Under the pieces are notes generated by a model. The model saw nothing but the letters and a program-made list of their open reading frames with translations, ran no database searches and was not told the DNA's origin. A DNA stretch of 64,000 bases from Rhizophagus irregularis (Eukaryota; Glomeromycota; Glomeromycetes; Glomerales; Glomeraceae): positions 2,418,001-2,482,000 of the forward strand of contig NC_089452.1 in NCBI RefSeq assembly GCF_026210795.1, read 5' to 3'. The stretch's first letter is position 1. Each line of letters begins with the position of its first letter. A program made the position numbers and the translations under genes. Of the stretch, positions 19,011-48,879 are shown one piece after another.

Positions 19011-19016
19011 TTTTTT

Positions 19017-23254: not shown

Positions 23255-24067
23255 TAAGATGATTATAGCACATAGTAATAATAAATATAGCAAGAATATA
23301 ATAATAAATATATCATAAACTGCAAAATAAAAAAACGTATATTACAATGTGTTCATATAAAATAAAATCGGTCAATAATAGAAAAAAACGGGTAATAATG
23401 AATTACGAAAAAATCAAAAATAGAAAGATTCTGGCTTACTCGAAATAAAAACAGGCATAGATTATTTTAAGTATTGCTCTTACTGATCTATGAATCGGCA
23501 TTTCTATTTAAAACTATTTGTGATCGAAATAAAAACAGGCATATGTTATTTTAAGTATTGTTCTTACTGATCTATATATCGGCATTTCTATTTGTGAGAA
23601 TGGCATGATTATCGCAGTCCGATTTTGGATGATTACTGCATGAATCTGCATGGTAGTATAAGTCTGTTGTGCCAATTTATAAATCGGCACTTATTTTTTG
23701 AAAAATTATTATACGAATCGGTACAATAGGCAGTCCGATTTGGGAGATTATTGAAGAATCGGCAGGTAATATAAAATGTTTGTTGTTCTGATTTAAAAAT
23801 CGGCACTTCTATATGTTATGAATCAGCATGTTTATTTTCATGCCGGCAGTCTGATTGTGATGATATTTTGTAAATTTATTTACAAGTCGGCAGTCCGATT
23901 ATTGTTTGAATCGGCATGATGGTTTAAAATGCGGCATTCCTATTTTTTGTCATTAAAAAGAGGAATTTCTATTTTTAGCAATTCGCGCCATAAAATCGGC
24001 TGAATAAAGCCACGAATCGGACAAATACAGCCAAAAATCGGCAGTCCGATATTTGACTGATTTTTAC
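23255..24067. repeat. Subterminal ATCGGCA / CAGTCCGAT repeats (copy A, right)
   Basis: Non-coding. From about 23440 the words AATCGGCA, GCAGTCCGATT and GCATTTCTATTT recur every 30-60 bp in both orientations. One pair of ~80-bp units (CGAAATAAAAACAGGCATA.. at 23443 and 23525) is tandem. The sequence differs from the left subterminal block but shares the ATCGG/CCGAT core. Confidence 0.7.
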
Positions 24068-24081
24068 TTATTTGACGTGTG
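24068..24081 (-). repeat. Terminal inverted repeat, right end of copy A
   Basis: It reads CACACGTCAAATAA on the minus strand. LINE ORF1 sequence begins at 24082. Confidence 0.75.
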
Positions 24082-24231
24082 AATCCTATTTCAAGAAATT
24101 CGGCAACTTGCTATCCCTTCATCTCTATTCACGGAAAGGTGCCAAAATGCAACAAGCCCGCATCGTTTATGATCATGCCGATGCCATCGCCCGTTTTACG
24201 ACCCAATGGGCTGTTTATTGTTTCTCCACTT
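24082..24231 (+). pseudogene. 150-bp LINE ORF1 fragment at the palindrome centre
   Basis: It matches LINE ORF1 codons for SYFKKFGNLL..CFST (compare 8027-8175 and 56926-57075). Its right edge (CCACTT) continues in frame at 48894 (CTTGTTTACG), so it is the 5' half of the insertion target of transposon B in LINE copy 2. Its left edge is cut by copy A. Confidence 0.9.
24229..24231 (+). repeat. Target-site duplication CTT of transposon B (left)
   Basis: CTT precedes the terminus at 24232 and is repeated at 48894-48896. The empty site in other LINE copies has a single CTT (CCACTTGTTTAC). A 3-bp duplication is usual for CACTA-like elements. Confidence 0.75.
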
Positions 24232-24245
24232 CACACGTCAAATAA

Positions 24246-25059
24246 GTAAAAATCAGTCAAATATCGGACTGCCGATTTTTGGCTGTATTTGTCCGATTCG
24301 TGGCTTTATTCAGCCGATTTTATGGCGCGAATTGCTAAAAATAGAAATTCCTCTTTTTAATGACAAAAAATAGGAATGCCGCATTTTAAACCATCATGCC
24401 GATTCAAACAATAATCGGACTGCCGACTTGTAAATAAATTTACAAAATATCATCACAATCAGACTGCCGGCATGAAAATAAACATGCTGATTCATAACAT
24501 ATAGAAGTGCCGATTTTTAAATCAGAACAACAAACATTTTATATTACCTGCCGATTCTTCAATAATCTCCCAAATCGGACTGCCTATTGTACCGATTCGT
24601 ATAATAATTTTTCAAAAAATAAGTGCCGATTTATAAATTGGCACAACAGACTTATACTACCATGCAGATTCATGCAGTAATCATCCAAAATCGGACTGCG
24701 ATAATCATGCCATTCTCACAAATAGAAATGCCGATATATAGATCAGTAAGAACAATACTTAAAATAACATATGCCTGTTTTTATTTCGATCACAAATAGT
24801 TTTAAATAGAAATGCCGATTCATAGATCAGTAAGAGCAATACTTAAAATAATCTATGCCTGTTTTTATTTCGAGTAAGCCAGAATCTTTCTATTTTTGAT
24901 TTTTTCGTAATTCATCATTACCCGTTTTTTTCTATTATTGACCGATTTTATTTTATATGAACACATTGTAATATACGTTTTTTTATTTTGCAGTTTATGA
25001 TATATTTATTATTATATTCTTGCTATATTTATTATTACTATGTGCTATAATCATCTTAC
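24246..25059. repeat. Subterminal repeats of copy B (left)
   Basis: Mirror image of 23255-24067, non-coding, with TGCCGATT and CAGTCCGAT words in the opposite orientation. Confidence 0.7.
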
Positions 25060-26302
25060 TATTTTCTTTCACTTTTTTAAAAGAGAACGTTTTTTAGTAG
25101 TTGATCTCCTAATAATTTCTTTTGGAACCACTAGTCGAAATGGATCATCCTTTTCATCGCTGTCATCGATAAAAATATAATCATTATTATCGGTTTTCTT
25201 ATCGTCATCATTCTTATCGTTATTATCATCGTTAACGTTATTGTCGTTTTTATCGTTACTAGCATTGTTTTTATCTTTGTCGTTATTGTCGTCATTGTTA
25301 TCGTCATTGTTATCGTCGTCACTATTATCCTCTTCATCACCATCTTCGTCGGATTCTTGTGCAACCCAGCTTGACGAAATCCACCAACTGGGAATGTTCT
25401 CCTTTGGTTTGCTTTTTTTGTCAAAATTTTCATCTGAGCGGTAACGTGGACGACTTAAACCAGATCCGATGCTAATACCAATTTCTTCCGATCGATGTAG
25501 AATTTTTTGAATCTAATAAAAATTTATAATTTATTAAGCATAAATGTTATATTCATTAATAACATCACGACTTCGCATACTCCCGACGACCGCCACTTCT
25601 TGTCGTAAATCTTTATTACTGAATTATTGTTAATTAATCGACCTGATCTTGTATTTTTACTGCGTTCTTTGTTTGCTAATTCCTCGTCTTCTGTGGACCA
25701 TTCGTCCGAGTGTATGTCTGAAGTATTAGTCGCCTTTATACAATCTTTGATAAATTCTTCCCATTTTAAGTTACGAGGTTGGCATTCAGTCAAAAGTTTG
25801 TCTCGTGTCGATATCATGTGCTGCAATCCTCTTCTGCGCCGGGACATCTTCTATTGAAGAGTAAATTAAAAAATTAATTAATTGTATATGTTTTTATTAT
25901 TAAATAATGAATTTTATACCTGATCCCTTCTGGATATCATGTGTTGTCTTTTGGTATGTTCCGGCATTTTACCCTCTTTTTGCAGTTTCCAAATCTCTCG
26001 GCGAGATTTATGCAATTGTTTTATGATTCTTACTATCTCTATATCATATGCTACAATAGAAGGATTCATGGCCGATTTTACTGCTGGCAAAAGTTTTCTT
26101 TCTATTGTTTTTTTTTGTTCACTGTACGTCTTTGATAGGTCGAATTGAAGCGACTGATTAAGATTATTGAGAATATGGACTACTTCATCCTATTTAATAA
26201 AACAGTCATTAAATGATCAAATATTTAATTTAATAAAGATAAATTTTAATAAAAATGTATATTTACGTGAAGTGTCTTCTTATAATTACTTGACATGAGT
26301 GG
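25060..26302 (-). pseudogene. Gene Y copy B, 3' part (exons 4-6 and end of exon 3)
   Basis: Minus-strand mirror of gene Y: exon 3 end 26302-26267, exon 4 26189-25920, exon 5 25850-25581, exon 6 25512-25060. These exons are unchanged by eye from copy A. The gene is cut inside exon 3 by the LTR retrotransposon, so only a truncated product could be made from either side. Confidence 0.8.
26299..26302. repeat. Target-site duplication GTGG of the LTR element (left)
   Basis: GTGG is present once in the uninterrupted copy A sequence (complement near 22013) and again at 37634-37637 after the right LTR. Confidence 0.8.
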
Positions 26303-27694
26303 TGTAAACGGTCAAATATCAAGCATGAAAAGATGATAAAATTCAACTACCAAACGTAATTGCCAAATGTTAAGAACGAACAAATTAATTATGGATTGGT
26401 GTAGATGGATAAATAATTAGCCGAAAAGGATAAACATTTAGGAGGAGTAATGGGAATCCCATAATTTTTATGAACTCAATATTTTAGTAATATATAAACT
26501 AAGCGATATCTATAATGTTGATAAACATTTAGGAAGAGTAATGATCTACATAATGTAATATTTATCAAATGATTGACAAAGAACCAATAGGAAAAATAGA
26601 GTCGATCATTTGCGGCTTAGCGATCTTTAACGATAAGAACGATAAGAAAGAATAATTATAAGCCACAGAAGATAAATTATAAGCAAAACACATAAAGTGG
26701 ATTAAAAGAACATATAAAATAATGTCGGAAAGATTAAAGAACACGAAATAATATAAAAGATAATATGAAGAGATAGTATAAAGATGGAATATAAAAGATA
26801 ACATTAAAAAAGAACATATATAAAAAGATAACACAGCCACAAAAGATGGATTATATCTTTACGACATAATATTTGAAAGATTATTTTAAAGAAAAGATAG
26901 CACAGCCATAAAAGATGGGTTATAAATTATTTCTTTACGATGTAATATTCGAATAATAGAAAAGATAATATATAAAATAATATATAAGATAGCATATTAA
27001 AAGATAGCGTATTTAGAATATAAATAGTATATTAAAAAGATAGTTCAAAGATAATATGTAAAAGAACATAAAAGAAGTATATTAGAAAGATAGTTCAACG
27101 ATAATATGTAAAGAATATAAAAGATAGTATATAGATAGAATAGAAAGTAGCATAAAAATTGTATATATAGAAAGCGGAATTCAAAGTAATTCCACAGTTC
27201 TCATCCACAGAACTCAATAAAAATATAAGTTTCATTTAATTATTCGTTAGTAAAGTTTAATATTAATTAAAGGTAATAGGTTCGCCCTAAACTTTAATTA
27301 ATGTTCGCTTAATTAATTTTAATTGAATAAAATGAAAATTTTAAGAAGAATTAAATATACATTGTGAAAAGTAATGATTCGTAGCGAGAGCTATCGAAGT
27401 TTGAAATTAAAGGTAAAGTGGATATAATTTGGGGAAAATTTAGAGAAGTTAATTTTATTTTATATCGTTTGATGTTTTATATTACTAATGCTATTTACGT
27501 CGTGAACCAAGAATGTTGTCGTTATATATTGTTGTATGTTGTTCGTTGATTATGTTATTGTTAGTTATGTTGTTGATAATTTGTTCGTTTGTTCAATTGT
27601 TCGTTCGTTCGTTCATTCGTTCGTTCAACCATGGGAATGCCCGTTCGACGTGGCAACTCTGTAAATTGATGACAGAGGGAATAGGGGGATCTCA
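26303..27694 (+). repeat. 5' LTR
   Basis: 1392 bp, TG..CA termini. AT-rich, with many AAAGATA words. A GTTCGTTCGTTC microsatellite lies near its 3' end (27590-27627). Confidence 0.95.
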
Positions 27695-27696
27695 TA

Positions 27697-27714
27697 TGGT
27701 GCATGCTCCGAGAA
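27697..27714 (+). promoter_or_regulatory. Primer-binding site (tRNA-derived)
   Basis: TGGTGCATGCTCCGAG begins 2 nt after the 5' LTR. It starts with TGG, the complement of a tRNA 3' CCA. Which tRNA primes cannot be decided from memory. Confidence 0.65.
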
Positions 27715-29137
27715 AGGAAATGATCATCATCACATGATTATTATTACAATAATGAATATGAAAATTTAATTTCGTTAGTAAGTCACTGATAGGTATTATT
27801 AATCAATATTTTATTTTAGAATTTATTTTTAGATTTCAGGTTTTAACGAGTTCAAAAGGAACCAATAAATCAACAAGGATTTAATCGAGTTAAAAACTTG
27901 GAAAGGTGAAAGATTGAAGTTTGAAGTTGTGCAAGTAATCACTTAATCGATAGAAAGCACAAGAATATTTCTTTCGGGAATAAAGTACCTGAGAAATTTC
28001 ATAAGGAGATGTGGAAGTGAAAGATGAATTTTGGAATAAAGATTAATAATGGGAGAACACCAATGCATTATCTGGGGTTCATCTGTGTGGTATGGGTTAC
28101 CTCTGAGCTTGAATTTTGGATAAATGCTCGAGATTGGAAAATTTTTATTCTTCGACATTAAAGATTATAACGTATGGGTTACGTCAAATCTGGATACCCA
28201 GCTCAATAATGCGCAAATTGCTTTGGGGACGGGGAATGAAAATTGTAAAGACACCTACTATCAAGAAACATTGAATGGATAAAATAGGACAAACCTGTAA
28301 ACTATCATGCTTTTACCCAATGGGAAAGAGATAGAGATAAGCCCAGTATAGGTCCACTAATTTGAGGAAAGATAAGTTGGTTTAGATGAGTTTTATGGAT
28401 AGCTGATGACTTTTGAAACCGGATTTTGGAAGGTTAGATTCACCCGTTAAGAGACAAGTCGGCCAACGAAGGAGGAAAAATGGATACGTTGTATTGTTAC
28501 AGGTCCTAGGCTACATTTCAGATGAAGGTTCCTGGTGTAGTGTCCTAGTTCACGCTCTCATTACAATATTCCGTTAAAAGAAGATAAAATAGAAGGATAT
28601 TTACACATTAACGAGCCGTATAATGAACATTACGTGCAGTATTTAATAATAGAGTAAAATCCGAAAAGAAGGACATTTATTAAAAAGAAGAACATTTATT
28701 TGAAAAAGAACATTTATTTGAAAAGAAGGACATTTATCTGAAAAGAACGACATTTTGTGCGTTATAGATTAATTTATATAATATAGAATATATAGAGCAA
28801 GAAGGATTTATGTGGATGATAAGAAAGATGTGATATGTGAAATTATGGATATCGGTGACAAAAGATAAACTTTGTGGCGCAGTAAAAACCTCCGCAGTCT
28901 GAGGAGATCGTGGACTTAGAATAATTTTTGAAATTTTGAGGCGCAGCAAAAAATTAATAATAGAATATGGAGTAGTAAATATATAAAATTGAAAGATGGA
29001 ACTCAAAGATTGAAAGAAGTAATCTATTTAAAGATAAAAGAATGTTTAAAAGATTGAAAATAGAAACGATAAGAGTGAAATATATATATAAAAGGAGGTG
29101 AAATTTTAGTTAAGATTCTGGATGAACGATTACAACG
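27715..29137 (+). other. Long untranslated leader of the LTR element
   Basis: About 1.4 kb without a supported ORF between the primer-binding site and Gag. At 28672-28756 a ~20-bp unit, GAAAAGAAGGACATTTATTT-like, is repeated four times. It probably contains the packaging signal. AAAGGAGGTGAAATTTTAG near 29092 is fortuitous in a eukaryote. Confidence 0.6.
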
Positions 29138-32100
29138 ATGGAATGGTACGAAACTTGGAGGGTTGATTACGAAAATCACAAATTAAGACATGATGAAAAT
29201 ATCGGAAATATAGATATAGATGAATTAAGGGGAGAAAATATAACATGTGAGATATGTTATCCGACAAGAGATACACCAGAAGTTTTCAAGAAATTTTGGA
29301 AAATATTGCAAAAATTTGAATATACGATAAAAGATTATAATGCAGAAACTATAAGAGCGTTACTAAATTTATTAAGTATAGATAGTGAAGAAAGAAATAA
29401 TTATACAAAAGGAAGGACTAGAGATGCATTAGATGTAATAGTCGAATCGATAAGATACTTGAAACAACCAGTATTAAGAGAGAAAGGATTAAAAATAATA
29501 ATAATAGTGATCGTGAGGGATTGTATAGAAAATGATAAAGAAGATGAAACAATGGACAGATTAATAGGGAATGAAGAATTAATAAGATATGGTTATATTT
29601 TGGAAGATTGGGATGTGAATATAAGATTTAGGGAATTTTATGAATGGCATAAAGTGGCTATATCAGAGTTTATAGAATGGAAAGATAGCGTTATTAGAAA
29701 ATACAAAGATATATTGTATGAGGAAGCGGAATTAAAAGAAGATGAGTCAACGGAAAAAATAGAAGCGTTCAAACAAAAGATTAGATCAATGTTGAATACA
29801 ATGTACGTAAAAGGTCGTGGTGGAGGAATCTCGAAAGTAGTAATTGAAAGAGTTTATGATAAGATTAGGGGGTTTGAGCAATTAAATATAGATGAAACAG
29901 ATAGTGATGACACACCAAGAAGTTATACTATAACAGAAACAGACGATGGGGAGGAAGAAAATTTACCAATTAGTAAAAATGAAGAAATGCCAGATGAGGA
30001 ATCTGACGAATCTATTGAATCTAATAATGTTGAAGAAACAGAAACAACAAAGGTATTCGAAGAAATAATTAGAATGGATTTGAAAAGAATGGGATATGAT
30101 GTAGAAATAACGGAAATTGAAAGAATAAGAAAATTTGGAGTAACCGCAAAGATAATAACAACATATGAATTTATGAAGAAATATTTAACAATATGGAATC
30201 TTGAAGATGGAAAATTAGATGAACAAATATTACAATGGAGAGTTGAAAACACAAAAGAATGCGGAAGATGTGAAATTGAAAGATTAAAGAGAGAATTTGA
30301 AATTGGAAAAGAAACCTGCATAGAATGTGAAAAAGATATTGAAAAAGAAAATCCAACAGATGATGAAGATGAAATGGAAGAGGATATAAAAGGACCCGAA
30401 ATTGGCTCAAGTAAAAAACCAAAAAGTAAAGAGAAAAATAAAAAATCAAAGGAAGTACCTATAATACCAATAACACCAGTACCACCAATAAAACCAAAGA
30501 TAACAATGGCAGCATCAAGAGATGAACTCAGAGCAGATCTAAGAGCATTAATGAATACTATGTATAATCATGATATTGGGGCAGATTGGAACAATTTAGC
30601 AGTACCACCGATAACATTGACAGGATTACAAGGAGAAGTTCAAGCGAATACCAATGCGATAGGAAATTTAAACGCAAATAGAGGAGCTATTGTAGAAATA
30701 CCAGCATTTTATGGTACCAGTGGAGAAGATCCAGAAGAATGGGCAGATAAATTTGAGGAGACATTTACAGCAAATGGTTTAGGGAATGATGATGCACAGA
30801 GATTTAGATTAGCAAAAGCGAAATTAATGGGAGGAGCAGCAGATTGGTTAAAGACTGAAGGAGTAAATATCGTCGATTGGAATGTTAATGGAGATCATAA
30901 TTTAAGATTAAGAGTAAGAATAATTGGAAAGTATGCAAGTGATGAAATTAAAGATAGATGGCTAGAACAATTAGAAAAGATTAGACAGGGAGACGAGAAT
31001 GTAACTCAATACCTTACGAGATTTAAGTATATGTTAAAGAGAGCGGGAGGTGATGCAGCAGTAGCAGCAAATCAGCAAAAGAGAATTTTTATTAGAGGAT
31101 TAAAACCGGACTTTACTAAAGATGTAGTAATGGGAAATCCAGCAGATCTAAACGCAACATTTCAGATAGCAAAAAACGTAGAAAGAGGTTTAGAAGCATT
31201 AACAGATAAAGTACAACCAAAAGGAATTAATGATGAACAAAGAAGACAAGAACCTATTGTTCAAGGGAATGTAAGGAATAATAAAGGGGTAGGTGTAGAT
31301 GAATTAGCAGACAGTTTTGCGAAGTTACAAATTAAGATGTTAGAAGATGAGAATGAAAGATTAAGAAATTTAGCGAGTCAGAGCTATAGGCGATTGCCAC
31401 AAAGAAATCAACCAATGCAAAGAAATCAACCAATTCAAAGAAATCAGTCATTCCAAAAAAGAGTACCGACATGCTATACATGTGGTAGAGCTGGTCATTA
31501 TTCAGGAGAGTGTCCAGAGAAAAGAAGGAATGTAGGAGTGAATATGATGGACGAGTATTATGATCAAGAAGAATATGATTATAATGGATATGAAGATGAG
31601 GAACCACAACACGGTGAAATGTATTATACACAAGGTTATTACGATGATTATGAAGATAGGGAATTAAATTATCATAATGAATTATACGCAAAAGATAACG
31701 CAGTAAAGACAAGAAGACAAACAAGAAGGACGAATCCAGTAGTGGGATATAAAAATAATGGTGAAGAAGGAAATTTACAAGAAGAATTAAGAGAAGCGGG
31801 AAATAGAATGGATGATAGAGAAATACCAAGTGGAACAACAACACCAAGATATACGCCCGAAAGGATAGAACAAAATAATGTATACAAAGATAGTCAAAAT
31901 TGGGATAATCCAATAGGACCAGAAGATTATAATTATGGTCGGCGACCCATGACAAAAGATGGAAGATTTTATAAACCAATGTTCACAAAAGAAGGCAAAG
32001 CATTTTACCCTGGAATGCGGCAAGATGAATTTGGAAATTGGGTTAGAACAAAGCCATCAGGGACAGGAAAGCCCAGAGAATATGGACTGAGATTAACTGA

Positions 32101-32248
32101 TGGAATACCACCTTACGATATTGTGGAAGACGTGAAAAATTGTAGAGCGAATATAACAATTGGACAAATGATAAATGAGAATACTAAGTATCATAAACAA
32201 TTGAGAGAAGGAACATATAGACCAAGAAGCATAAATGAGAAAAATTGA
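29138..32248 (+). CDS. gag: Gag polyprotein with long N-terminal extension
   Basis: 1036 residues, unusually long. Residues ~1-460 are a charged, helical region that I do not recognise, with CEIC, CGRCEIE and CIECE cysteine pairs (~45-48 and ~370-405). Residues ~465-480 are a Pro/Ile linker. The capsid-like Retrotrans_gag region follows at ~495-690 (FYGTSGEDPEEWADKFEETF, AADWLKTEG, YLTRFKYMLKRAGG). A CCHC zinc knuckle CYTCGRAGHYSGEC lies at ~777-790, and then an acidic Tyr/Asp-rich tail. It forms the virus-like particle and binds genomic RNA. It ends in TGA followed by CTA. The protease ORF is in the same frame, so part of it may be made as Gag-PR by readthrough. Confidence 0.9.
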   Translation: MEWYETWRVDYENHKLRHDENIGNIDIDELRGENITCEICYPTRDTPEVFKKFWKILQKFEYTIKDYNAETIRALLNLLSIDSEERNNYTKGRTRDALDVIVESIRYLKQPVLREKGLKIIIIVIVRDCIENDKEDETMDRLIGNEELIRYGYILEDWDVNIRFREFYEWHKVAISEFIEWKDSVIRKYKDILYEEAELKEDESTEKIEAFKQKIRSMLNTMYVKGRGGGISKVVIERVYDKIRGFEQLNIDETDSDDTPRSYTITETDDGEEENLPISKNEEMPDEESDESIESNNVEETETTKVFEEIIRMDLKRMGYDVEITEIERIRKFGVTAKIITTYEFMKKYLTIWNLEDGKLDEQILQWRVENTKECGRCEIERLKREFEIGKETCIECEKDIEKENPTDDEDEMEEDIKGPEIGSSKKPKSKEKNKKSKEVPIIPITPVPPIKPKITMAASRDELRADLRALMNTMYNHDIGADWNNLAVPPITLTGLQGEVQANTNAIGNLNANRGAIVEIPAFYGTSGEDPEEWADKFEETFTANGLGNDDAQRFRLAKAKLMGGAADWLKTEGVNIVDWNVNGDHNLRLRVRIIGKYASDEIKDRWLEQLEKIRQGDENVTQYLTRFKYMLKRAGGDAAVAANQQKRIFIRGLKPDFTKDVVMGNPADLNATFQIAKNVERGLEALTDKVQPKGINDEQRRQEPIVQGNVRNNKGVGVDELADSFAKLQIKMLEDENERLRNLASQSYRRLPQRNQPMQRNQPIQRNQSFQKRVPTCYTCGRAGHYSGECPEKRRNVGVNMMDEYYDQEEYDYNGYEDEEPQHGEMYYTQGYYDDYEDRELNYHNELYAKDNAVKTRRQTRRTNPVVGYKNNGEEGNLQEELREAGNRMDDREIPSGTTTPRYTPERIEQNNVYKDSQNWDNPIGPEDYNYGRRPMTKDGRFYKPMFTKEGKAFYPGMRQDEFGNWVRTKPSGTGKPREYGLRLTDGIPPYDIVEDVKNCRANITIGQMINENTKYHKQLREGTYRPRSINEKN

Positions 32249-32251
32249 CTA
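32246..32251 (+). promoter_or_regulatory. Candidate stop-codon readthrough context UGA-CUA
   Basis: The Gag stop reads UGA CUA, a context known to favour readthrough in several eukaryotic systems. The frame downstream stays open through the whole protease. The first in-frame ATG after it is at 32267. Confidence 0.5.
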
Positions 32252-32761
32252 CACTCGGTGGGAACTATGAAAAATGAAGAGAAAAGAACTACAGCAATGA
32301 GAACAGAATTAGAAGTTGAAGATCAATTAGTGAATGTAATAATAGATACTGGAGCAGCAGTAAGTGTGATAACAGACAAATTAAGGAGGAGATTGAATAT
32401 ACCTATATTTGGAAAAAGTAAATTTAGATGTACAATAGCAAATGGGCAAAAGATAGCAGCGTTAGGAAAGGCAAATATAACTTTGAGATACAAAGATGAA
32501 TTGGAAATACTAAAAGAAGTTGAGGTAATCGATTCAGAAGAAGAGGATCTAATTTTGGGAAATGATATATGGAAGCTGTATAATGCAAAAATAAATTTTG
32601 AAGATCATACCTTAAGAATAGAAAAACGAGGAGAAATAATAACGATTCCAGTAGGATATGAAAGGGAAGCAATATATGAAAGTGAAGAGAGCGAGGATGA
32701 CGAAGAATATGAAAGCAACGATGAAGGAGAGGTATTCAAAATGCACCAGAATTTTAAATAG
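32249..32761 (+). CDS. Retropepsin-type aspartic protease
   Basis: In frame with Gag across one TGA. From the ATG at 32267 it is 164 residues. The active-site motif IIDTGAAVSVI has its Asp at residue 27, and LILGNDIW near residue 100 is the family's second signature (ILG). Such enzymes work as dimers and cleave the Gag and Pol precursors. The C-terminal ~30 residues are acidic (SEESEDDEEYESNDEGE). The next ORF begins 35 nt after the TAG in the -1 frame. Confidence 0.9.
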   Translation, partial: LHSVGTMKNEEKRTTAMRTELEVEDQLVNVIIDTGAAVSVITDKLRRRLNIPIFGKSKFRCTIANGQKIAALGKANITLRYKDELEILKEVEVIDSEEEDLILGNDIWKLYNAKINFEDHTLRIEKRGEIITIPVGYEREAIYESEESEDDEEYESNDEGEVFKMHQNFK

Positions 32762-32796
32762 AAAGTCTTGGCTCTGAAGAGAGAGAGACGGAAAAG

Positions 32797-34878
32797 ATGC
32801 TCGAACCAAGTGAAAAATTTATGCAAAAACTAAGTATAGGGGAAGTAGAAGAACCAATTTGGGAAAATATGGTAAAATTACTATTAGAATATCAAGATAT
32901 TTTGGAATACGATGAGGAAATAGAAGGAAGAACAAAAGCAGCGCAACATGAGATAAAAATAAAAGATGGGGTAGAACCAATAAAGCAAAGAAGATATAAA
33001 GAAACAGATGAAAAGGCAAAATTTATAAGCGAAGAAGTAGACAAATTGTTAAGACAGGGAAGGATAAGGAAATCAAAAAGTCCATGGAGTTCACCTGTTA
33101 CATTAGCAGGAAAGAAAACAGGAAAATATAGATTTTGCATTGATTACAGAAAGTTAAATAAGATAACTATAATGGATAGTTTTCCTTTACCAAGAATGGA
33201 TGAATTATTAGACAAATACAGAAAAGCAAAATGGTTTTCAAGTATAGATTTAGCGGCAGGATTTAATCAGGTAGAAATGAAAGAAGAAGACAAAGAAAAA
33301 ACAGCATTTGTATGTTCGAAAGGGTTGTTTGAATATAATGTAATGCCGTTTGGTTTAACGAACGCACCAGCAACATTTCAAAGATTAATGGATGAAATAT
33401 TAGAAGAATACATAAATGATTTTGTAGTAGTATATATCGATGATATTATGATATATTCAGAAAATTTGAAAGACCATATGGAACATGTGGAAAAAGTATT
33501 GAAGAAGTTACAGGAGAATAATTTAATAATAAAATTAAAGAAATGCAGATTTTTGGAAAGAAACATAGAATTTTTAGGACATATAGTAGGAAATGATGGA
33601 TTAAGGCCAGACGATAAAAAGATAGAAAAGATAAAAGAAATGAAGGCACCAACAACAGTGAAAGAAGTAAGATCATTTTTAGGACTTTGTTCATATTACA
33701 GAAAATTTGTGAAGAATTTTTCAAAGATAGCAAGACCAATAAGTGATTTGAGAAAGAAGGGAATACCTTTCATTTGGGGAAGAGAACAACAAGAAGCGTT
33801 TGAAAAATTGAAAGAAAAGTTAATACAATATCCAATATTGCGACATCCAGATTGGAAGAAAGAATTTTTATTAATAACAGATGCATCAGGAAAAGGATTA
33901 GGTGCAGTATTAAGTCAAAAAGATGAAAAAGGAAAAGAAGTAGTAATAGCATATGCAAGTAGAAGTTTATTACCAGCAGAAGAGAATTATCCAATAACAG
34001 AATTGGAATGTTTAGGAATAGTTTGGGGAGTTCAACATTTTCATAAATATTTGATCGATAGAAAATTTAAAGTAATAACAGATCACAGTGCATTAAAAGG
34101 ATTAATGAATGCAAAGATACCGAAAGGAAAAAGAGCAAGATGGGTAATGGAATTACAGCAATATAATTTTGAAGTAATACATAGATCAGGAAAAGAAAAT
34201 ACGAACGCTGACGCATTAAGTAGGTTATTAAAGATAGTAGAGGATCAACCAGAAATAGTAATAATCGACGGAGTAGACGGATTAGGAAAGACAAGTATAG
34301 TACAAAATTTAATTGAAGAATGGGAAAAGCAAGGATTAAAAGTAAGATTCAACACTTATAAGAGAAGAAGAAAAGATAAAGATGAATTTTATGAATCAAA
34401 GATGGAGACAGAATGGAAATTCAGAAAAGAAGTAGTGGAACAAATAAACAGAAGAATGCTAGAATATGACGAAGATACAGATATAATAATTTTAGACAAA
34501 TCACCATATTGTGAATATTATTATCAAAAGACGAAAAGTTTTGACAGAGGATTAATTACTCCACATGGAAATCATGAGATGGAAAAAGAAATATTCAGAC
34601 TGAAAGAAACAATAGACAAATCAATAGTGATATTTTTAGAAAAGGATAGTGATGTATGTTGGAAAAATTACATTGGAAGAGAAACAAAGAAAACGGAAAA
34701 ATCGTCATATCCAACATTAAAGAAGGATGAATATTTGGACATGGTTAGAATGTTTGGAGAAAGTCAGGGCGTGTACAAAGATACTAAAAGATACAGTCGA
34801 GTAAAAGTTAAAAATGACAATAGTAGTTGGAGAAAAGTATTTAAAGAGGTGGAGAAATGGAGAAGAGCACAGAACTAA
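32797..34878 (+). CDS. Reverse transcriptase-RNase H fused to a thymidylate-kinase-like domain
   Basis: 693 residues. RT occupies ~60-330 (SPWSSPVTLAGKK, FCIDYRKLN, SSIDLAAGFNQ, PFGLTNAPATFQ, YIDDIMIYS with Asp215-Asp216). RNase H follows at ~360-480 (LLITDASGKGLGAVL, TELECLGIVW, TDHSALKGL, NTNADALSR). Directly behind it residues ~486-693 form an extra domain: beta strand plus P-loop IIDGVDGLGKTS (Lys498) and ILDKSPYCEYYYQ (from Asp567), where thymidylate kinases have DRY..S..AYQ, then a Lys/Arg/Thr-rich LID-like stretch near residues 630-645. Length (~208) and motif order match a thymidylate kinase; Lys replaces the usual Arg after Asp567. Usual gypsy Pol proteins run from RNase H straight into integrase. 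Confidence 0.9.
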   Translation: MLEPSEKFMQKLSIGEVEEPIWENMVKLLLEYQDILEYDEEIEGRTKAAQHEIKIKDGVEPIKQRRYKETDEKAKFISEEVDKLLRQGRIRKSKSPWSSPVTLAGKKTGKYRFCIDYRKLNKITIMDSFPLPRMDELLDKYRKAKWFSSIDLAAGFNQVEMKEEDKEKTAFVCSKGLFEYNVMPFGLTNAPATFQRLMDEILEEYINDFVVVYIDDIMIYSENLKDHMEHVEKVLKKLQENNLIIKLKKCRFLERNIEFLGHIVGNDGLRPDDKKIEKIKEMKAPTTVKEVRSFLGLCSYYRKFVKNFSKIARPISDLRKKGIPFIWGREQQEAFEKLKEKLIQYPILRHPDWKKEFLLITDASGKGLGAVLSQKDEKGKEVVIAYASRSLLPAEENYPITELECLGIVWGVQHFHKYLIDRKFKVITDHSALKGLMNAKIPKGKRARWVMELQQYNFEVIHRSGKENTNADALSRLLKIVEDQPEIVIIDGVDGLGKTSIVQNLIEEWEKQGLKVRFNTYKRRRKDKDEFYESKMETEWKFRKEVVEQINRRMLEYDEDTDIIILDKSPYCEYYYQKTKSFDRGLITPHGNHEMEKEIFRLKETIDKSIVIFLEKDSDVCWKNYIGRETKKTEKSSYPTLKKDEYLDMVRMFGESQGVYKDTKRYSRVKVKNDNSSWRKVFKEVEKWRRAQN

Positions 34879-34938
34879 AAATACAGAACACATAACGAAA
34901 ATAACAAATTTAGAAGCGAAATCAATTAAAGAGGTATT

Positions 34939-36165
34939 ATGGAAGAAAATAATTACAAGAGAATAATTGACAATATCGAAAAGGAGAATAAATATGAATT
35001 GAAAGAAGGAATTCTATATAGAGTGAAAGGACAAAACAAATTTAGAGTAATCAGGGATTATGAATACGAAGGATTGATGTACATGATGCATGATAACGAA
35101 TTATCAGGACATTTTGGAGTAGAAGCGACATTAGATAGAATAAAAGAAAATTATTGGTGGAAAAATATGAAAGAAGATGTAGAAGAATATGTAAAAACGT
35201 GTTGGAATTGTCAAATGAGAGGAAAACCAAGAGGAAAGAACGAATTAATGCCGATAAAGATAAATGAACCGTTCGAGATGATTGGAATAGATATAGTTGG
35301 ACCGTTAAAAGAGACAGAAAAGGGAAATAAGTATATTGTAGTAGCAATGGATTATTTTACAAAATGGCCCGAGGCCGCACCACTAAAAGAAGCTACAGCG
35401 AAAGAGGTAGTAGAATTTGTTTGGAGGGACATAATTTGTAGACATGGGTGTCCAAAGAAAATAATTAGTGATAGAGGGACTCACTTTAACAATAGAATGA
35501 TGGAAGAATTAGTAGAAAGATGTGGGATAAATCATAGATTAAGTACACCATATAGGCCACAAACAAATGGTTTGGTCGAAAGATTCAATAAAACTTTATG
35601 CGAAGGATTAGCCAAATTAGGAGAAGAAAACTGGGATAAACATATACCATCCGTATTATTTGCATACAGAACAAAGAAGCAATCGTCAACAAGAATTAAA
35701 CCTTTTTATGCAACGTACGGAAGGAGAGCGAAATTACCATTAGATAAAGACGAAAATAAAATAACATTAGCTGATAGAGTAAAAATATTAATTGAGGAGC
35801 TACCGGTAATAAGAAGGAAAATAAAAGAAAACGTGGAAGAAGCTCAAGAAAAACAAAAACAACAACATGACAAAAGAGGAATTAGGAAACCTAAATTTGA
35901 AATAGGAGAAAAAGTATTATTATACGAAGCGTGGAGAGAAAAACAATGGTCTGGAAAATTACAGAACAAATGGAAAGGACCATATTTAATTCACGAAGAA
36001 TTTGGAAACGGAGCATATAAACTCAAAGAATTGGACGGAAGAATACTAAAAACACCACAAAATGGAGAATGGTTAAAGAAATTTTATAATCGAGAGAGAT
36101 TTACACCAAAAATAGTAATTAAAGGAAAAGAGGTATTCGATAAGACCCGAGTTCGATTCGATTAA
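34939..36165 (+). CDS. Integrase (H2C2 zinc finger, DDE core, GPY module)
   Basis: 408 residues. N-terminal HHCC: H..GHFG and CWNCQMRG. The catalytic core has Asp in GIDIVGPL, Asp in SDRGTHF and Glu in GLVERFNKTL with exactly 35 residues between the last two (DX35E). The C-terminal WKGPYLIHE is the GPY/F module. No chromodomain follows. It is in the same frame as the preceding Pol ORF but separated by two in-frame TAA codons (34876-34878, 34927-34929), so it is probably translated independently or from another RNA. Confidence 0.93.
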   Translation: MEENNYKRIIDNIEKENKYELKEGILYRVKGQNKFRVIRDYEYEGLMYMMHDNELSGHFGVEATLDRIKENYWWKNMKEDVEEYVKTCWNCQMRGKPRGKNELMPIKINEPFEMIGIDIVGPLKETEKGNKYIVVAMDYFTKWPEAAPLKEATAKEVVEFVWRDIICRHGCPKKIISDRGTHFNNRMMEELVERCGINHRLSTPYRPQTNGLVERFNKTLCEGLAKLGEENWDKHIPSVLFAYRTKKQSSTRIKPFYATYGRRAKLPLDKDENKITLADRVKILIEELPVIRRKIKENVEEAQEKQKQQHDKRGIRKPKFEIGEKVLLYEAWREKQWSGKLQNKWKGPYLIHEEFGNGAYKLKELDGRILKTPQNGEWLKKFYNRERFTPKIVIKGKEVFDKTRVRFD

Positions 36166-36227
36166 AACCATTATGGATAAGACACGAGTTCGATTCTATT
36201 AAAATTATTTGTGAGGTCACAAATAGT

Positions 36228-36241
36228 GAAGAGGGGGATAA
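36228..36241 (+). promoter_or_regulatory. Polypurine tract
   Basis: GAAGAGGGGGATAA directly before the 3' LTR, the expected site for plus-strand DNA priming. Just upstream, GATAAGAC.CGAGTTCGATTC.ATTAAAA is directly repeated (36139-36202). Confidence 0.75.
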
Positions 36242-37633
36242 TGTAAACGGTCAAATATCAAGCATGAAAAGATGATAAAATTCAACTACCAAACGTAATT
36301 GCCAAATGTTAAGAACGAACAAATTAATTATGGATTGGTGTAGATGGATAAATAATTAGCCGAAAAGGATAAACATTTAGGAGGAGTAATGGGAATCCCA
36401 TAATTTTTATGAACTCAATATTTTAGTAATATATAAACTAAGCGATATCTATAATGTTGATAAACATTTAGGAAGAGTAATGATCTACATAATGTAATAT
36501 TTATCAAATGATTGACAAAGAACCAATAGGAAAAATAGAGTCGATCATTTGCGGCTTAGCGATCTTTAACGATAAGAACGATAAGAAAGAATAATTATAA
36601 GCCACAGAAGATAAATTATAAGCAAAACACATAAAGTGGATTAAAAGAACATATAAAATAATGTCGGAAAGATTAAAGAACACGAAATAATATAAAAGAT
36701 AATATGAAGAGATAGTATAAAGATGGAATATAAAAGATAACATTAAAAAAGAACATATATAAAAAGATAACACAGCCACAAAAGATGGATTATATCTTTA
36801 CGACATAATATTTGAAAGATTATTTTAAAGAAAAGATAGCACAGCCATAAAAGATGGGTTATAAATTATTTCTTTACGATGTAATATTCGAATAATAGAA
36901 AAGATAATATATAAAATAATATATAAGATAGCATATTAAAAGATAGCGTATTTAGAATATAAATAGTATATTAAAAAGATAGTTCAAAGATAATATGTAA
37001 AAGAACATAAAAGAAGTATATTAGAAAGATAGTTCAACGATAATATGTAAAGAATATAAAAGATAGTATATAGATAGAATAGAAAGTAGCATAAAAATTG
37101 TATATATAGAAAGCGGAATTCAAAGTAATTCCACAGTTCTCATCCACAGAACTCAATAAAAATATAAGTTTCATTTAATTATTCGTTAGTAAAGTTTAAT
37201 ATTAATTAAAGGTAATAGGTTCGCCCTAAACTTTAATTAATGTTCGCTTAATTAATTTTAATTGAATAAAATGAAAATTTTAAGAAGAATTAAATATACA
37301 TTGTGAAAAGTAATGATTCGTAGCGAGAGCTATCGAAGTTTGAAATTAAAGGTAAAGTGGATATAATTTGGGGAAAATTTAGAGAAGTTAATTTTATTTT
37401 ATATCGTTTGATGTTTTATATTACTAATGCTATTTACGTCGTGAACCAAGAATGTTGTCGTTATATATTGTTGTATGTTGTTCGTTGATTATGTTATTGT
37501 TAGTTATGTTGTTGATAATTTGTTCGTTTGTTCAATTGTTCGTTCGTTCGTTCATTCGTTCGTTCAACCATGGGAATGCCCGTTCGACGTGGCAACTCTG
37601 TAAATTGATGACAGAGGGAATAGGGGGATCTCA
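36242..37633 (+). repeat. 3' LTR
   Basis: 1392 bp, same length and termini as the 5' LTR, followed by the GTGG duplication (37634-37637). Confidence 0.95.
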
Positions 37634-38583
37634 GTGGCAGCTCACGTTTCTGTTCTCTAATAAGAATAGGCGATAAGCTTCTATTGGGACGATTAACTAA
37701 AGGTTCTTCATGACTAGCATTTTTTTCGGTTAGGTTATTTAAGCGTTGTGTGAGATTTAAGATTACATTTCTTAATTCTTGAATTTCTTGGTTTTCAACG
37801 CCACCTATTATAAGTCAGTATTTAATATAATTCATTTTGAAAATTTTTTTTTTACATGTAAGTCAGAATAGGAGCGTGAGGGAAATAATACCGCTATTTA
37901 GAGCCAGAGTAATTGAAGAGGAAGGTTGATTTTGCAATATCGAAGATTGATTTGTAAGTGTTCCTATAATAATTATGTTAAATCGGTATATGTTTTGAAA
38001 TGTAATTAAGACTAATTTAAATAATATTACTTTTTGTTAATGATCTCCCTCTATTTTGTGGTGATGAATCTTTGGATGAGAGAGTGGTAAATTGATCATT
38101 AGAATCAGATACTTCATAATAGGATCGATGATGGTTAGAACTGTGGGATCTAGATTGTGATTTATGTGATCGATGATGTCGACGTGAACGGATAGGGGAA
38201 CTAGAATGGGATGGAGAGATATGTTGTTGTCGTAATCGGTGACTACGAGATTGGGAACGACTACGACTACGAGATTGGGAATAACTACGACTACGAGATT
38301 GGGAATGACTACGACTACGAGGTTGGGAACGATAATGGGAACGACGTGAATGAGAACGACGATGTGAACGACGTGAGTGAGAACGACGTGAGTGGGATCG
38401 TTGATGAGAACGACGTGAGTGAGAACGACGATGGGAACGACGTGAATGGGATCGTTGATGAGAACAACGTGAGTGAGAACGACGATGGGAACAACGTGAA
38501 TGGGATCGTTGATGAGAACGATGTGAGTGAGAACGGGAATCTGATTCTTTTTGTTGAGATCTAGTATTGAGGTTCCTATGCAT
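37634..38583 (-). pseudogene. Gene Y copy B, 5' part (exon 1, exon 2, start of exon 3)
   Basis: Minus strand: exon 1 38583-38031 from the ATG at 38583, exon 2 37963-37892, exon 3 37804-37634, then the LTR element. The Ser/His/Arg repeat is 8 codons longer than in copy A through an extra RSRSHSQS-type unit, and one Arg is Cys. Splice sites are preserved. Confidence 0.8.
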
Positions 38584-38908
38584 CCCGAGAAATTTGTAAA
38601 AATTTAAATCTTTTCATTATGGTATTTATTATTAAAGATCGGACAAGAGATAAAAAGGCACTTTATATACATATTTTGAATCATCCTATCATTTAACGCG
38701 TAATTGCCTAATCAAAATAAACATAAAATAAATTATTAACTTCGTTATCACATATCAATAAATTTATACTACATCGCTATCCATCAATTAAATATATTAA
38801 TAATCAATTAATATCATTAAACTTAATTAAATTAATTACTTACGGAAGTTTGTTTTTCCGGTAGGAAATCTGTGACGCGACGAAATAGCGATACGTGACG
38901 AAAAAGCA

Positions 38909-39075
38909 ATAGGAAATATTTTTGAAACCGTGATGTGAACGCAAAAAGCGATAGAAAATATTTTCGAAACTGTGATGTGAACGAAAAGAGAGAGGAAATA
39001 TTTTCGAACTGTGATGTGAACAAAAGAAAAGAGAGGAAATATTTCGAACTGTGATGTGAACGAAAAAAAGCGATA
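38909..39075. repeat. ~38-bp minisatellite (copy B)
   Basis: Mirror of the array at 20597-20790. One unit carries a few extra bases (AACAAAAGAAAAGAG) compared with copy A, a sign of repeat instability after duplication. Confidence 0.65.
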
Positions 39076-39846
39076 TAAATATCGTCGAAGAAAGCGTGGT
39101 AAACATACACAAATATATCATGATCGGCACCTCCGATTTTGTAGGATTTATGCATCTGGCGCGTGACACTTATGCGTCATCCAGTCACGTGTAGTAACAA
39201 ACTGCGCCCAAGGCAGAAAATTAGTACTTATTGGGCAATAAAAGAATAACTTTTTATACTTTTATACGTGATTTTGATATTTTGATTAAAAATAACTCAA
39301 TCAATTAATTTTTAATAAAAAATAATATAAAATCTTTCAACTAGATAACATACAAAATCGCCAAAATTTTTTTTTTCATTCTTTATGAAACTTGATTAAA
39401 AAAACAGCGCATAAATTTAACCACTAATAACATCGTTGATGTAATAAAGTTCTGAGTTCCATTCTGCCTGCGTACATGAATAACATCTACAGGGAGATGT
39501 TCCCCATGTCGATAGGGAGGATGATCCCCATACTAGACTGATTTTTTGTTTAAATTATAGTTCATATGTATTACTACTAAAATGATAGATGCAAGTTTAT
39601 CACGATCATTCGGCGCTGATGGACAAATCGTTCGTTGAGATACTTGTTACATGCAGTATGATGATTAATTACTATTAGATTTATACAAAATTTATGACAT
39701 TTTAAATCGATTTTAAAGGTATTAATATTATCTTATCTTATATTATGAAAAAGAAGCTGGTTTAATAGCCAAAAAAAACATCATATTTACAAAATATAAA
39801 GGAATTTTCAAATTAAAAAATGAAAAAATGAAATATAATTGATTAA
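39076..39846. other. Non-coding AT-rich spacer (copy B)
   Basis: Mirror of 19828-20596, without a gene. Confidence 0.4.
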
Positions 39847-40264
39847 TCATGACTTGTGAAATTTGAAGTATTCTGATAAGCTGCTAAATGTAGGTGATTG
39901 CGATTGTTGTTGCGATTGTTGTTGCGATTGTTGTTGCGATTGTTGTTGCGGCTGCGTTTGTTGATGTTGTTGCGAAAAATATAATCGTAAATTTAAATCA
40001 TAAATTTCTTTTTCATAGTCTTTTATTTTTTCGTCGTATATTTTTAACCACTCCACCAAATTATTGTTTTCACGGGAACTTTTCTCCAACTTATTAAGTA
40101 ATTTCTCTCCCGAATCGTACACAACTTTTTTAAAGTCCAGCAACTGGACTTGCAAATCGGCAACTTCCTTATCCTACCCCTTTAATTCCTTTAGCATTCG
40201 CTCTCTTCTATTTTTTTTTGCGATTTCGCGAGGATTTGCGAGAATTCAACGATGGTTTGCCCAT
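39847..40264 (-). pseudogene. Coiled-coil, poly-Gln accessory gene with premature stops (copy B)
   Basis: Mirror of 19410-19827 with the same A9-linked frame break and the same internal TAG, so both copies inherited the damaged form. Confidence 0.5.
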
Positions 40265-40575
40265 TTTTGCGAAAATAATCTTTCTGGCTAATCTCGGAAT
40301 TTATAATTCGATGAATAAAGCATGTATTATTGCTAAAAATGGCTAATAACATTCATTATGCTATATTTTAGGGGGTGGGAGAGGCGCAAAAGTGCCTGTC
40401 AGGTGGTATTTTCCAATCATATATATATAAATTGGTTAAAATCCCGAAAGATTTTGAGTAAATATTTGTAATATTATAATTAATACAAATTAAAAAAATG
40501 TGGCTGATTGTTTCACTTTAATAAGTATCTAGCGGCTTTTTGTGAATCAGAAATTAACCTTTAATATTAATTCAG

Positions 40576-40657
40576 GATCTCAAAAAATTTCCTAGATAAA
40601 AAAATTTTTCAAAAAAATTTCCTATATAAAAAAAAATTTTCAAAAAATTTTCTAGAT
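40576..40657. repeat. A/T-tract tandem repeat before transposase (copy B)
   Basis: Mirror of 19017-19098, immediately 5' of the copy B transposase ATG. Confidence 0.45.
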
Positions 40658-40663
40658 AAAAAA

Positions 40664-43600
40664 ATGTCTAACCCTCGAGCTGTTGCCAAATCTAATAGAA
40701 CAAGAATAAGAACTAAAGTATACTGCTTTTGTAAAGAATGTAATGGCAAGTTAGTGGACCCAAGAACGAAAACTAAACATGGGTTAAAATATAATATATC
40801 TTATGCGAATAATAATTTTAGTAACAATTATCAAGAAGCTGAGCCTTCTAATGCTAATCCATCTAATAATTTTGGTGATGATTATCAAGAGGCTGGGCCT
40901 TCTGATGTTGGACAATATACTGATGATAATAATGCAATGGAATGCGAACCTTTACTCGAGATGATACCTATACATGAATCGGCAAAACATAAATTCACAA
41001 AGAAAGGGAAAATATCTGATCACGTTCTTGAAAATTTATTACCGGATAACGGAAGAGATATGAATGATGATCAAGATAGAGATTTTGAAGACTATGATGA
41101 CGAAAATAGAGATTCTGAAAGTTTTGAAGATGATGACGAAGATGGTGTTTCTAGCGATTTTGAAGATGATGACGAAGACAGTAATTTTGGAGATTTTGAA
41201 AGCGATGAAGAATATAGAGACTCTGAAGATTTTGAAGATGATGATGAGGAAGAAGTCAATTTTGCGTCAAAAGATTTTGACGATGGTGAACCAAAACTTC
41301 CTAATATCAACAATGATAATTATACCTGGATTATCTTATGGATATTACAATATCAACAAAGATATAAGCTTCCTAATGTTTCAATAGATTCTTTATTTAA
41401 ATTTCTAAGGTTTTTTCTTTTAACGGTAGATGAAAATAAATTTTCATCTTTTCCTTCCTCCCTGTACGTAGCCAAAAAAATATTGGGAATATCAACGAAT
41501 ATTATCAAATATGCCGCATGTAATAAATGTCACAAATTGTATGACATAAATGAAATATCAAACACAACCGAAGTACCAACATGTAGTTTTATAAACTACC
41601 CGAATCATAGCATAGAAAGATTTCGACAAAAATGTAATAACCCTCTAGTCAAAAAAATAGACAGTAATAAAGATGGTGGAAATAATCCAATTATCCGTCC
41701 GATAATGACATTTCCATTAGTTAACATTAGGCGCCAACTAACCCTATTTTTCGGTCGCAAAGATTTTGAGGTGACATGTCGAAAGTGGGCAGAAAGGGAA
41801 AACGAAACTGAAGCCTTATTTGACATTTATGATGGGAGGATTTGGATGAGTTTTGAAGATGGCAAAGGAGAACCATTCTTCAAAAAAGAATATGCCGAAA
41901 CTCATATCGGATTAATGCTAAACATGGATTGGTTTCAACCCTATATAAATTCCCAATATTCTGTCGGTGTAATATATGCCGTTATTTGTAACTTACCCCG
42001 AAGCGAACGTTTCAAGCCCTACAATATTCTCACACTAGCAGTTATACCCGGTCCTAAAGAGCCAAAGAAACATGAAATCAACAATTACTTATACCCCATC
42101 ATAAATCAGCTGAATCGGTTATGGGAAGGGTATCATATAAAAACCTACGAATATAACAACGGTCGTTTTATCCGTGGCGCGATAATAGGTTGTGCTAGTG
42201 ACGTTCCTGCGACTCGAAAATTATGTGGTTTTATATCAGCTCGAATCGCATGTTATCGATGCTATAAATCAGCAAACTTGGTAAATAATCAACCCAATTT
42301 TGGTGGGTTTGAAGACATTGACGACTGGTTTGTTGAGAGAGATATTAATTTAATAAGGGAGAAAGCACGTGAATGGAAGAAATGTGCAACCGAAGAATCG
42401 CGTAAGGCTCATGTCTCACAGTATCATGTTCGTTGGTCAGAAGTATACCAATTACCTTATTTTAATTCTGTGCGCTTTTGCGTAGTTGATCCCATGCACT
42501 GCCTCTTTCTCGGGGTAGCAAAGTGGATTGTAATGAAGCTCTGGATCGACGAAGGTATATTAAATAATGAAAAGCTCAAAATAATGCAAGAGCGAGCCGA
42601 CTTGATAAAATTTCCAAGTGACCTCGGTCGCCATCCCGTTAGAATAGCCACTGGCGACGGCTTTTCAAATTTTACGGCGGACATGTGGAAGACGTTTGTT
42701 CTAATTTTTGCAATACCTATCACATGGAATCTCTTGGGAGAGATCGATCGAAAAATTCTTGCTTATTTCGTACGTTCCTGTAAAATTTTAACAAATCGGG
42801 AACTACAAAAAAGTGATCTAAACGAAGCATTTACAAAACTACTCGAAATGAATAAATTAATTGAAAAAAAATACGGACAAAAAAAAATAAGCCCAAATCT
42901 TCATTTATGCCTTCACATATGTGAATGCGCTTTAGATTATGGACCTTTATCCTCATTTTGGTGTTTTAGCTTCGAACGAATGAACGGAATTCTAGGTATG
43001 ATATATTAATTTCGCCGATTTGAAAATCGTATTGTTTTTTTTAATTTATACAGATTGACCAATTTATTTCTTAAGAACATAGGATCGTATAAAAATAGCA
43101 AACGTAACATTGAACCAGAGCTATTAAAAATAATGGTTGAAAGTTCCTTTTTAAACTATTACCTCACAAATTGCGATAGCAATATATTAAACACCACTTT
43201 GGACATTATAAAGCCTAGAAAATCTGCAGGAAGCTTGGCTGCACTTGACGATTTTACAAGTGATGAGTATCAAAATTTTCTGAGGCTTTCACTTATCGAA
43301 AATGAATCGGCTTATGGAACAGAACGTTTTCCCGGGTTGTTAATGAAACCGCGCCAAGAAACATGTCTCCCAAACCGCGTCTTGGACTTACTGGTTGAGT
43401 TTTATAATAGTTTGTATGAAGAACATTTCGTCCCCATTTATTCTATAACGGGTCCAAATAACGATATTGTTGTAATTTCCAAAATTATACAATACGGTAG
43501 AATAAGAATTGGGCGGATATATTTGGTTCCATTCAGGCAGCTCGTCATGAGAAATCATCATACATATTAGCTCGTTTTGAGCAGGAAGATGGAACTATAG

Positions 43601-43926
43601 ACACATACCCCGGTCAAGTTCAATTTTATTTTGAACATACTATTTATTTAAAAAATTCATCATCATTAACTCATTCGCTAGCACTAGTTAAATGGTACAG
43701 GCCGGCCCAAGATCATAGGACAAGATATTTTTGTCAAGTAGACGATGACATAAAATCATGTAATATAGAATTATGGACAAATGGGTTTTATGATATGAGT
43801 CGAGATAGTATTATACTGGTACATCATATATTAGGAAAATTTATAAAATGTGATTTTAATATTGGAACGAGAAAGATAAAAGAATATATGGCCGTGATTC
43901 CTTTAAATAAAAAAATTTCGTTTTAA
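40664..43926 (+). CDS. Tnp2/Plavaka-like transposase (copy B), C-terminus frameshifted
   Basis: Exon 1 spans 40664-42995, intron 42996-43082, exon 2 from 43083. The open frame ends at 43570, and a continuation in another frame runs to TAA at 43924-43926. The break lies near 43512 (AGAATTGGGCGGATATA), where one base appears to be missing. Just before the first proposed catalytic Asp422 it reads THIGLMLNMDWFQP, and it has FDIYDG further upstream, which fits my memory of the family better than copy A. If the short form is functional, or if recoding occurs, this is the likelier active copy. Confidence 0.75.
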
Positions 43927-48870: not shown

Positions 48871-48879
48871 GATTTTTTT

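Follow-up and report, generated by a model that had tools for sequence, protein, structure and literature searches.

We examined a window of 64,000 nt from the Rhizophagus irregularis genome (NC_089452.1, positions 2,418,001-2,482,000; coordinates below are window positions), which carries a Ty3/gypsy long terminal repeat (LTR) retrotransposon at 26303-37633. The open reading frame (ORF) for its reverse transcriptase (RT) and RNase H, at 32797-34878, encodes 693 aa without an internal stop: RVT_1 occupies residues 106-264 and RT_RNaseH residues 352-456, and about 208 extra residues follow in frame, predicted to form a kinase-like domain of the thymidylate kinase (TMK)/deoxynucleoside kinase (dNK) superfamily. 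A first-pass annotation, made from the letters alone, had described this extension with its P-loop, a DKSPYCEYYYQ motif and a basic stretch, in an intact ORF between RNase H and integrase of an element with apparently identical LTRs. ORF translation and Pfam searches agree with this description; integrase is a separate ORF, and the two LTRs show no difference in their 1,392 bp. The features of the element are as follows.

26299..26302, no strand: target site duplication GTGG, left copy (flank sequence and empty site)
26303..27694, + strand: 5' LTR with TG...CA ends (matches the 3' LTR exactly over 1392 bp, at an offset of 9939)
27697..27712, + strand: putative primer binding site (TGG...), placed from the sequence after the 5' LTR
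29138..32248, + strand: gag ORF, 1036 aa (Pfam Retrotrans_gag match, CCHC knuckle)
32258..32761, + strand: aspartic protease ORF (Pfam gag-asp_proteas, 3.3e-9), beyond the UGA stop that ends gag and in frame with it
32797..34251, + strand: RT-RNase H portion of the 693-aa ORF (Pfam RVT_1 5.8e-45, RT_RNaseH 3.3e-37)
34252..34875, + strand: predicted kinase-like domain of the TMK/dNK superfamily, continuing the RT-RNase H frame (AlphaFold2, Foldseek/VIA, PHROG 761)
34270..34296, + strand: P-loop GVDGLGKTS (sequence, family alignment)
34495..34527, + strand: DKSPYCEYYYQ at the position of the TMK DR motif (sequence, family alignment)
34678..34692, + strand: RETKK, a basic LID-like stretch (model residue Arg150, present in 52/52 rows)
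34939..36165, + strand: integrase ORF with H2C2 zinc finger and rve core (Pfam)
36229..36239, + strand: polypurine tract AAGAGGGGGAT adjoining the 3' LTR (sequence)
36242..37633, + strand: 3' LTR, identical to the 5' LTR over 1,392 bp
37634..37637, no strand: target site duplication GTGG, right copy (flank sequence and empty site)

The order of the Pfam matches (gag, protease, RT, RNase H, integrase) is that of Ty3/gypsy, and the paired TG..CA LTRs, the short target site duplication and the polypurine tract belong to the same type of element. In the 30 copies that match the domain best (L001-L030, window copy included), a stop follows the kinase at the same place in 30/30, with no run-on into integrase; an integrase motif lies downstream in 26 of them and was not found in four.

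Distribution, selection and exchange of the domain

The genome searched (146.7 Mb, 32 contigs) contains at least 151 matches to the domain (150 of 171 candidates were scored), which cluster near 92-100%, 85%, 60% or 55% identity, some lying between these levels. A domain match lies within 1.5 kb downstream in 87 of 88 scored RT-RNase H relatives (of 362 candidates). For C13:673410, the one relative without it, a domain match on the same strand lies some 15 kb farther along, perhaps because an insertion split the element. Among 150 scored RNase H matches (of 264 candidates), the domain is downstream in 0 of the 61 top-scoring ones, which are other elements, and in 87 of the remaining 89; the RT and RNase H sets are best-scoring samples, not full counts. 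In an unrooted RT tree, 14 domain-bearing rows are set apart from four domain-less rows (L075-L078) at 100/100, a pattern expected from one acquisition. The four top-ranking database proteins share 96-99% identity across the domain and are named R. irregularis DAOM 197198, and the domain was also found in proteins of R. clarus and Glomus cerebriforme, both Glomeraceae; two database searches with the domain, of limited sensitivity, returned no genera other than Rhizophagus and Glomus. Some of the database ORFs carrying the domain are misnamed after unrelated proteins (phosphodiesterase-like, KRAB-A, zinc knuckle).

For selection within the family, we used 29 distinct intact sequences from the 30 best RT matches (the window copy is L042; L045, with two stops, was excluded). 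The pooled ratio of nonsynonymous to synonymous polymorphism (pN/pS) was 0.109 for the kinase (codon bootstrap 0.071-0.157) and 0.040 for RT-RNase H (codon bootstrap 0.026-0.057), the RT value being biased low because the copies were picked by best RT match. Between families, all pairs of six sequences were compared, the pairs being non-independent. The corresponding substitution ratio (dN/dS) of the kinase was 0.09 for window/L073, 0.10 for L035/L039 and 0.15 for L074/L037; the other 12 pairs gave 0.11-0.25 at 53-67% identity, with dS 0.86-2.94 and thus partly saturated. RT-RNase H gave 0.04-0.31 over the 15 pairs. These ratios indicate that the kinase domain is under purifying selection, and the earlier expectation that other copies would keep the domain with dN/dS below 1 held both within the family and against the sister family L073.

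Retroelements capture host sequence and the host genome has TMK and dNK genes, so a captured sequence that merely hitchhikes, without function for the element, was considered. This explanation is highly improbable and close to refuted: the domain is under purifying selection within and between families, 29 of the 30 copies picked by RT match are stop-free in RT and kinase, and the domain is kept across the clade under three species names. An accident of one copy was rejected on the genome-wide copies, the retention across the clade and the purifying selection.

The domain occurs in two layouts, either as a C-terminal extension of RT-RNase H (window, L073, L035, L039) or as an N-terminal extension of integrase (L037; P0027, P0030, P0031), and lies between RNase H and integrase wherever the context was seen. 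Predicted stand-alone domain proteins of about 220-265 aa (e.g., P0044, P0049, P0088) are known from protein sequence alone. L073 has a mosaic structure: in RT-RNase H it is closer to L035 (88% identity) than to the window copy (68%), in the kinase closer to the window copy (87%) than to L035 (66%), and the kinase tree places it in a group with the window copy at 99/99. The 40-residue linker of L073 has 31 residues in common with L035 and 33 with L039, and the mosaic break is therefore near the P-loop. We concluded that the kinase domain has been exchanged between element families.

Fold, motifs and class of the domain

The AlphaFold2 model of the domain (from 34231) reached pLDDT 92.5 and pTM 0.89, and its best structural matches in the PDB were dNKs, TMKs and adenylate kinases (Foldseek/VIA), the TMK fold among them. 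PHROG 761 (thymidylate kinase) matches the window copy at 3.1e-14 over residues 9-210 and 10/10 diverse family members, the best at 1.9e-16; PF02223 matches 42 of 52 members. The model places the domain confidently in the TMK/dNK superfamily. Neither of the two outcomes that the first-pass annotation had set against its own proposal, a model without a match to the TMK/dNK fold or all other family copies lacking the domain or showing it degenerate, was observed. The remaining sequence searches were uninformative: the domain gave only P-loop-type matches in the PDB and at most 29% coverage at E 3 or worse in phages by tblastn; viral contig searches with A1, P0105 and P0130 gave nothing informative, and that with A4 returned two phage TMK-like loci only, the first of which matched only itself when used as query. 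A genome contig search with A4 gave 97 pattern matches, 0 of them confirmed.

Residue conservation was read from 52 aligned domain rows, counted over the rows with a letter at the position. The P-loop has the form GxxxxGK[ST], with the Walker K in 50/50 rows and T or S in 49/50. On the acceptor side, F64 and R65 are found in 52/52, Y98 in 51/51, Q99 in 50/51 and R150 in 52/52 rows; in the segment FNTFKRRR, N41, K44 and R47 are present in 52/52, R45 in 51/52 and R46 in 48/52. TMKs carry the motifs DR..S..[AF][YF]Q and DR[YH]. DKSPYCEYYYQ aligns with the former without gaps, K replacing R, and keeps the spacing to C/S and YQ; the same region of the host TMK reads DRYAYSGVSYS. Cellular and phage TMKs (PF02223; PHROG 761) have the P-loop, the overall fold and the DR/DK..S..[AFY][FY]Q spacing in common with the family, which differs from them in DK for DR, in FNTFKRRR for the REP/RFP motif and in its retroelement-polyprotein context; the domain is 9-17% identical to the TMK rows of the structural comparison.

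We incline, by a narrow measure, to the reading that an ancestor of the clade captured a P-loop kinase of the TMK/dNK superfamily that is active, most likely of dTMP type, and feeds reverse transcription. Several observations weigh against it. D89 and K90 are each present in 50/50 rows, so that the family has DK and not the DR[YH] of TMKs; because DK replaces DR in all rows, the domain is classed as TMK-like, not TMK. The structural Z scores of TMK and dNK chains are tied. The window copy scores 21.2 and 19.7 with PF02223, under the curated cut-off of 27, although a sister copy (C16:4182955) passes at 28.4, with its neighbours, as does the relic C6:4454486 at 27.7. Profiles built from reference sequences, seven phage TMKs and two dNKs, fail to split the classes (median 29.9 bits for TMK vs 27.3 for dNK over 54 sequences). 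A signature of a dTTP-rich pool in recent mutations was unsupported in 30 distinct copies (L041-L070, L045 with stops included), with G>A at 0.085 and C>T at 0.081 per site and no clear strand bias. The earlier TMK-like claim therefore stands for the fold, and the assignment to TMK itself is left at the level of the superfamily; in its profile check with PF02223 the window copy stayed below the cut-off and the sister copy passed. Separately, 139 of 150 singletons in L041-L070 are transitions, a very strong bias.

The base composition of the element fits a role in dTTP supply. The sense strand of the internal region has 44.1% A and 10.1% C, and the minus-strand DNA therefore needs 44% T. The fraction of A in the RT region is 0.41-0.44 in 6/6 domain-bearing elements vs 0.27-0.34 in 4/4 domain-less gypsy elements, and at third positions 0.49-0.56 vs 0.23-0.38. 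This A-richness, seen in one clade compared with others, is compatible with such a role.

A second explanation is that the domain is a deoxynucleoside salvage kinase converting thymidine or another deoxynucleoside to its monophosphate. We rate this as unlikely. PF01712 (dNK) matches 9 of 52 members, the best at 1.6e-4, vs 42 of 52 for PF02223, and is not among the seven families that match the window copy at E 0.01; the phage SP-15 dNK reference scores only 7.3 bits, and the TMK reference median given above is slightly the higher. The catalytic base of dNKs is the Glu of an E-x(3)-W type motif after strand 2; HETIEEW of the host dNK is replaced by FNTFKRRR in the family, so that this Glu is missing; N41, K44 and R47 of this segment are present in 52/52 rows, and a basic cluster suits a phosphate-bearing acceptor. 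The two NUDIX-fused relatives also favour the TMK over the dNK reference (39.7 vs 18.6 and 28.0 vs 12.0).

A third explanation gives the P-loop domain a role outside deoxynucleoside triphosphate (dNTP) synthesis: phosphorylation of nucleic-acid 5' ends, a switch or scaffold in Pol assembly or integration, or protection from host defence. The domain adjoins integrase and is fused to it in P0027, P0030 and P0031, its P-loop is also weakly matched by other NTPase families, and P0130 shows a weak PHROG match to polynucleotide kinase (2.6e-4). Such a role is nevertheless improbable in our judgment, since F64-R65, DK, YQ and the LID Arg on the acceptor side are conserved like the P-loop, as for a small-molecule kinase, and the structural matches listed are nearly all small-molecule kinases.

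The closest relatives without retroelement domains are the metagenomic NUDIX-kinase proteins P0105 and P0130. P0105 is 46% identical over the domain (profile match 3.6e-53); both proteins have DKSPYSE and the YQ signature in common with the family, and the Pfam scan found no retroelement domain in them. No NUDIX-kinase gene was found in the genome among the P0105 matches listed, all but one of which begin at residue 157 or later; the one that begins at residue 114 is a stretch with six stops. The linker of about 60 residues that precedes the domain in sister families was aligned by eye as a possible remnant of a NUDIX C terminus, and the shuffle test was unsupportive: the observed scores of the linker profile against P0105 and P0130 were reached by 937/2000 and 499/2000 shuffles. 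In the AlphaFold model of P0105 the NUDIX part stayed unresolved, with pLDDT mostly 27-48 at residues 1-140. Direct derivation from the host TMK was rejected: the host exons carry GCDKAGKST and DRYAYSGVSYS, and against the family profile the two host TMK pieces tested reach 14.8 bits, around the P-loop only, and 0.6 bits.

Other kinase-like sequences were noted in the genome. L079 285-1292 (G000:C28:1224011-1224604) is the only dNK-family match at E 0.01 among 25 scored candidates; the protein has an N-terminal extension of about 125 residues and matches the retroelement kinase profile end to end. L031 (G000:C24:3288271-3288729) is a second TMK-like host sequence, with a degenerate Walker A (GCEDTNTTLQS), and the ORF upstream of it is HMG-box-like by eye.

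Insertion site and neighbouring sequences

The element is a clean insertion into only one arm of a large palindrome; the other arm (reverse complement of 22000-22030) keeps an uninterrupted site with a single GTGG. The region 10777-24083 mirrors 24230-26302 plus 37633-48894 (99.9 and 99.5% identical), giving arms of about 13.3 kb; the palindrome may be genuine, a giant inverted repeat, or an artefact of assembly fold-back. Each arm has a 781-aa tnp2-like (Transposase_21) ORF, at 16665-19010 on the minus strand and 40664-43009 on the plus strand (the plus copy was scanned).

At the gag/protease junction (32246-32251), UGA and then CUA stand between the two ORFs in the same frame, a context favourable to stop readthrough. 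TGACTA is kept in all 53 genome matches listed for the 24-mer around it (at most 2 mismatches), a pattern that itself favours TGACTA. The N-terminal part of the gag ORF (29138-30900) is long: the Retrotrans_gag match begins at residue 590, with no Pfam family above cut-off before it. Direct repeats at 7093-10778, 48894-55823 and 55996-64000 (93-95% identical) are LINE-like by eye, and the middle one has an open 1873-aa ORF. The region 705-5020 has ORFs with DUF5906 and a marginal match to viral/organellar DNA polymerase B (26 vs a cut-off of 25.8), and is perhaps a polinton/Maverick-like element.

Proposed role and precedents

The capture proposed above would have taken place in the ancestor of one Glomeraceae Ty3/gypsy clade, which placed a P-loop kinase domain between RNase H and integrase and would since have retained it under purifying selection. 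The domain may be an active nucleotide kinase, most likely on dTMP or another deoxynucleoside monophosphate. Made within Pol, it would be enriched in the particles of the element, where it could raise dTDP and hence the dTTP available to RT. The rationale is analogous to that of the dUTPases of some retroviruses and gypsy elements.

dUTPase removes dUTP and has a fold unrelated to that of kinases; among lentiviruses, both dUTPase and A-rich genomes are known. In the accessible parts of the sources, dUTPase domains are described in fungal Ty3/gypsy elements (PosPlaTy3 of Postia placenta, Phanerochaete and Tuber elements), together with the cited idea that an element dUTPase helps in non-dividing cells (PMC2864245), and in LTR elements of bdelloid rotifers (PMC5408684). 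As far as these parts go, they are the nearest precedent, being likewise LTR elements with an added enzyme of nucleotide metabolism in or beside Pol; their dUTPase is placed at one or the other end of Pol, or between protease and RT, whereas the P-loop kinase lies between RNase H and integrase. Retroviral dUTPase may sit between RT and integrase (PMC5408684) and is likewise a nucleotide-pool enzyme possibly before integrase, differing in enzyme, fold and host. Orchid gypsy elements, on the available text, carry an m6A-demethylase-like domain (PMC9289625), also an enzyme captured by a gypsy lineage, with the differences that the enzyme is unrelated, lies in an additional ORF and is found in plants.

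The first-pass annotation knew of no common gypsy family with such an arrangement. In line with this, no description of a retroelement with TMK or dNK was found among the open-access titles and abstract starts listed. The text of PMC6338049, on accessory domains of retrotransposon polyproteins, contains neither 'kinase' nor 'dUTPase', that of PMC5408684 lacks 'kinase' and that of PMC11105155 lacks 'thymidylate'; such a domain is unmentioned in the accessible portions of two papers on R. irregularis transposable elements (PMC8647823, PMC11075540). We concluded that enzyme-domain capture by an LTR element is of a known kind, and that the enzyme class is new.

That a whole clade of fungal retrotransposons has its own nucleotide kinase in Pol, making dTDP/dTTP beside RT in the particle, is a tentative proposal, to which we give somewhat less than an even chance. 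If true, this would be the first retroelement known with a dNTP-synthesising kinase, within the reach of the literature search, linked to a genome extremely rich in A and poor in C, with 44% T in its first DNA strand. In non-dividing cells the supply of dNTPs limits reverse transcription, and retroviruses respond with dUTPase or with removal of host SAMHD1; an element-borne biosynthetic kinase would be a different answer to that limitation. Local dNTP supply to RT would then become testable with one small domain, and the finding would bear on the transposon-rich, AT-rich genomes of arbuscular mycorrhizal fungi.
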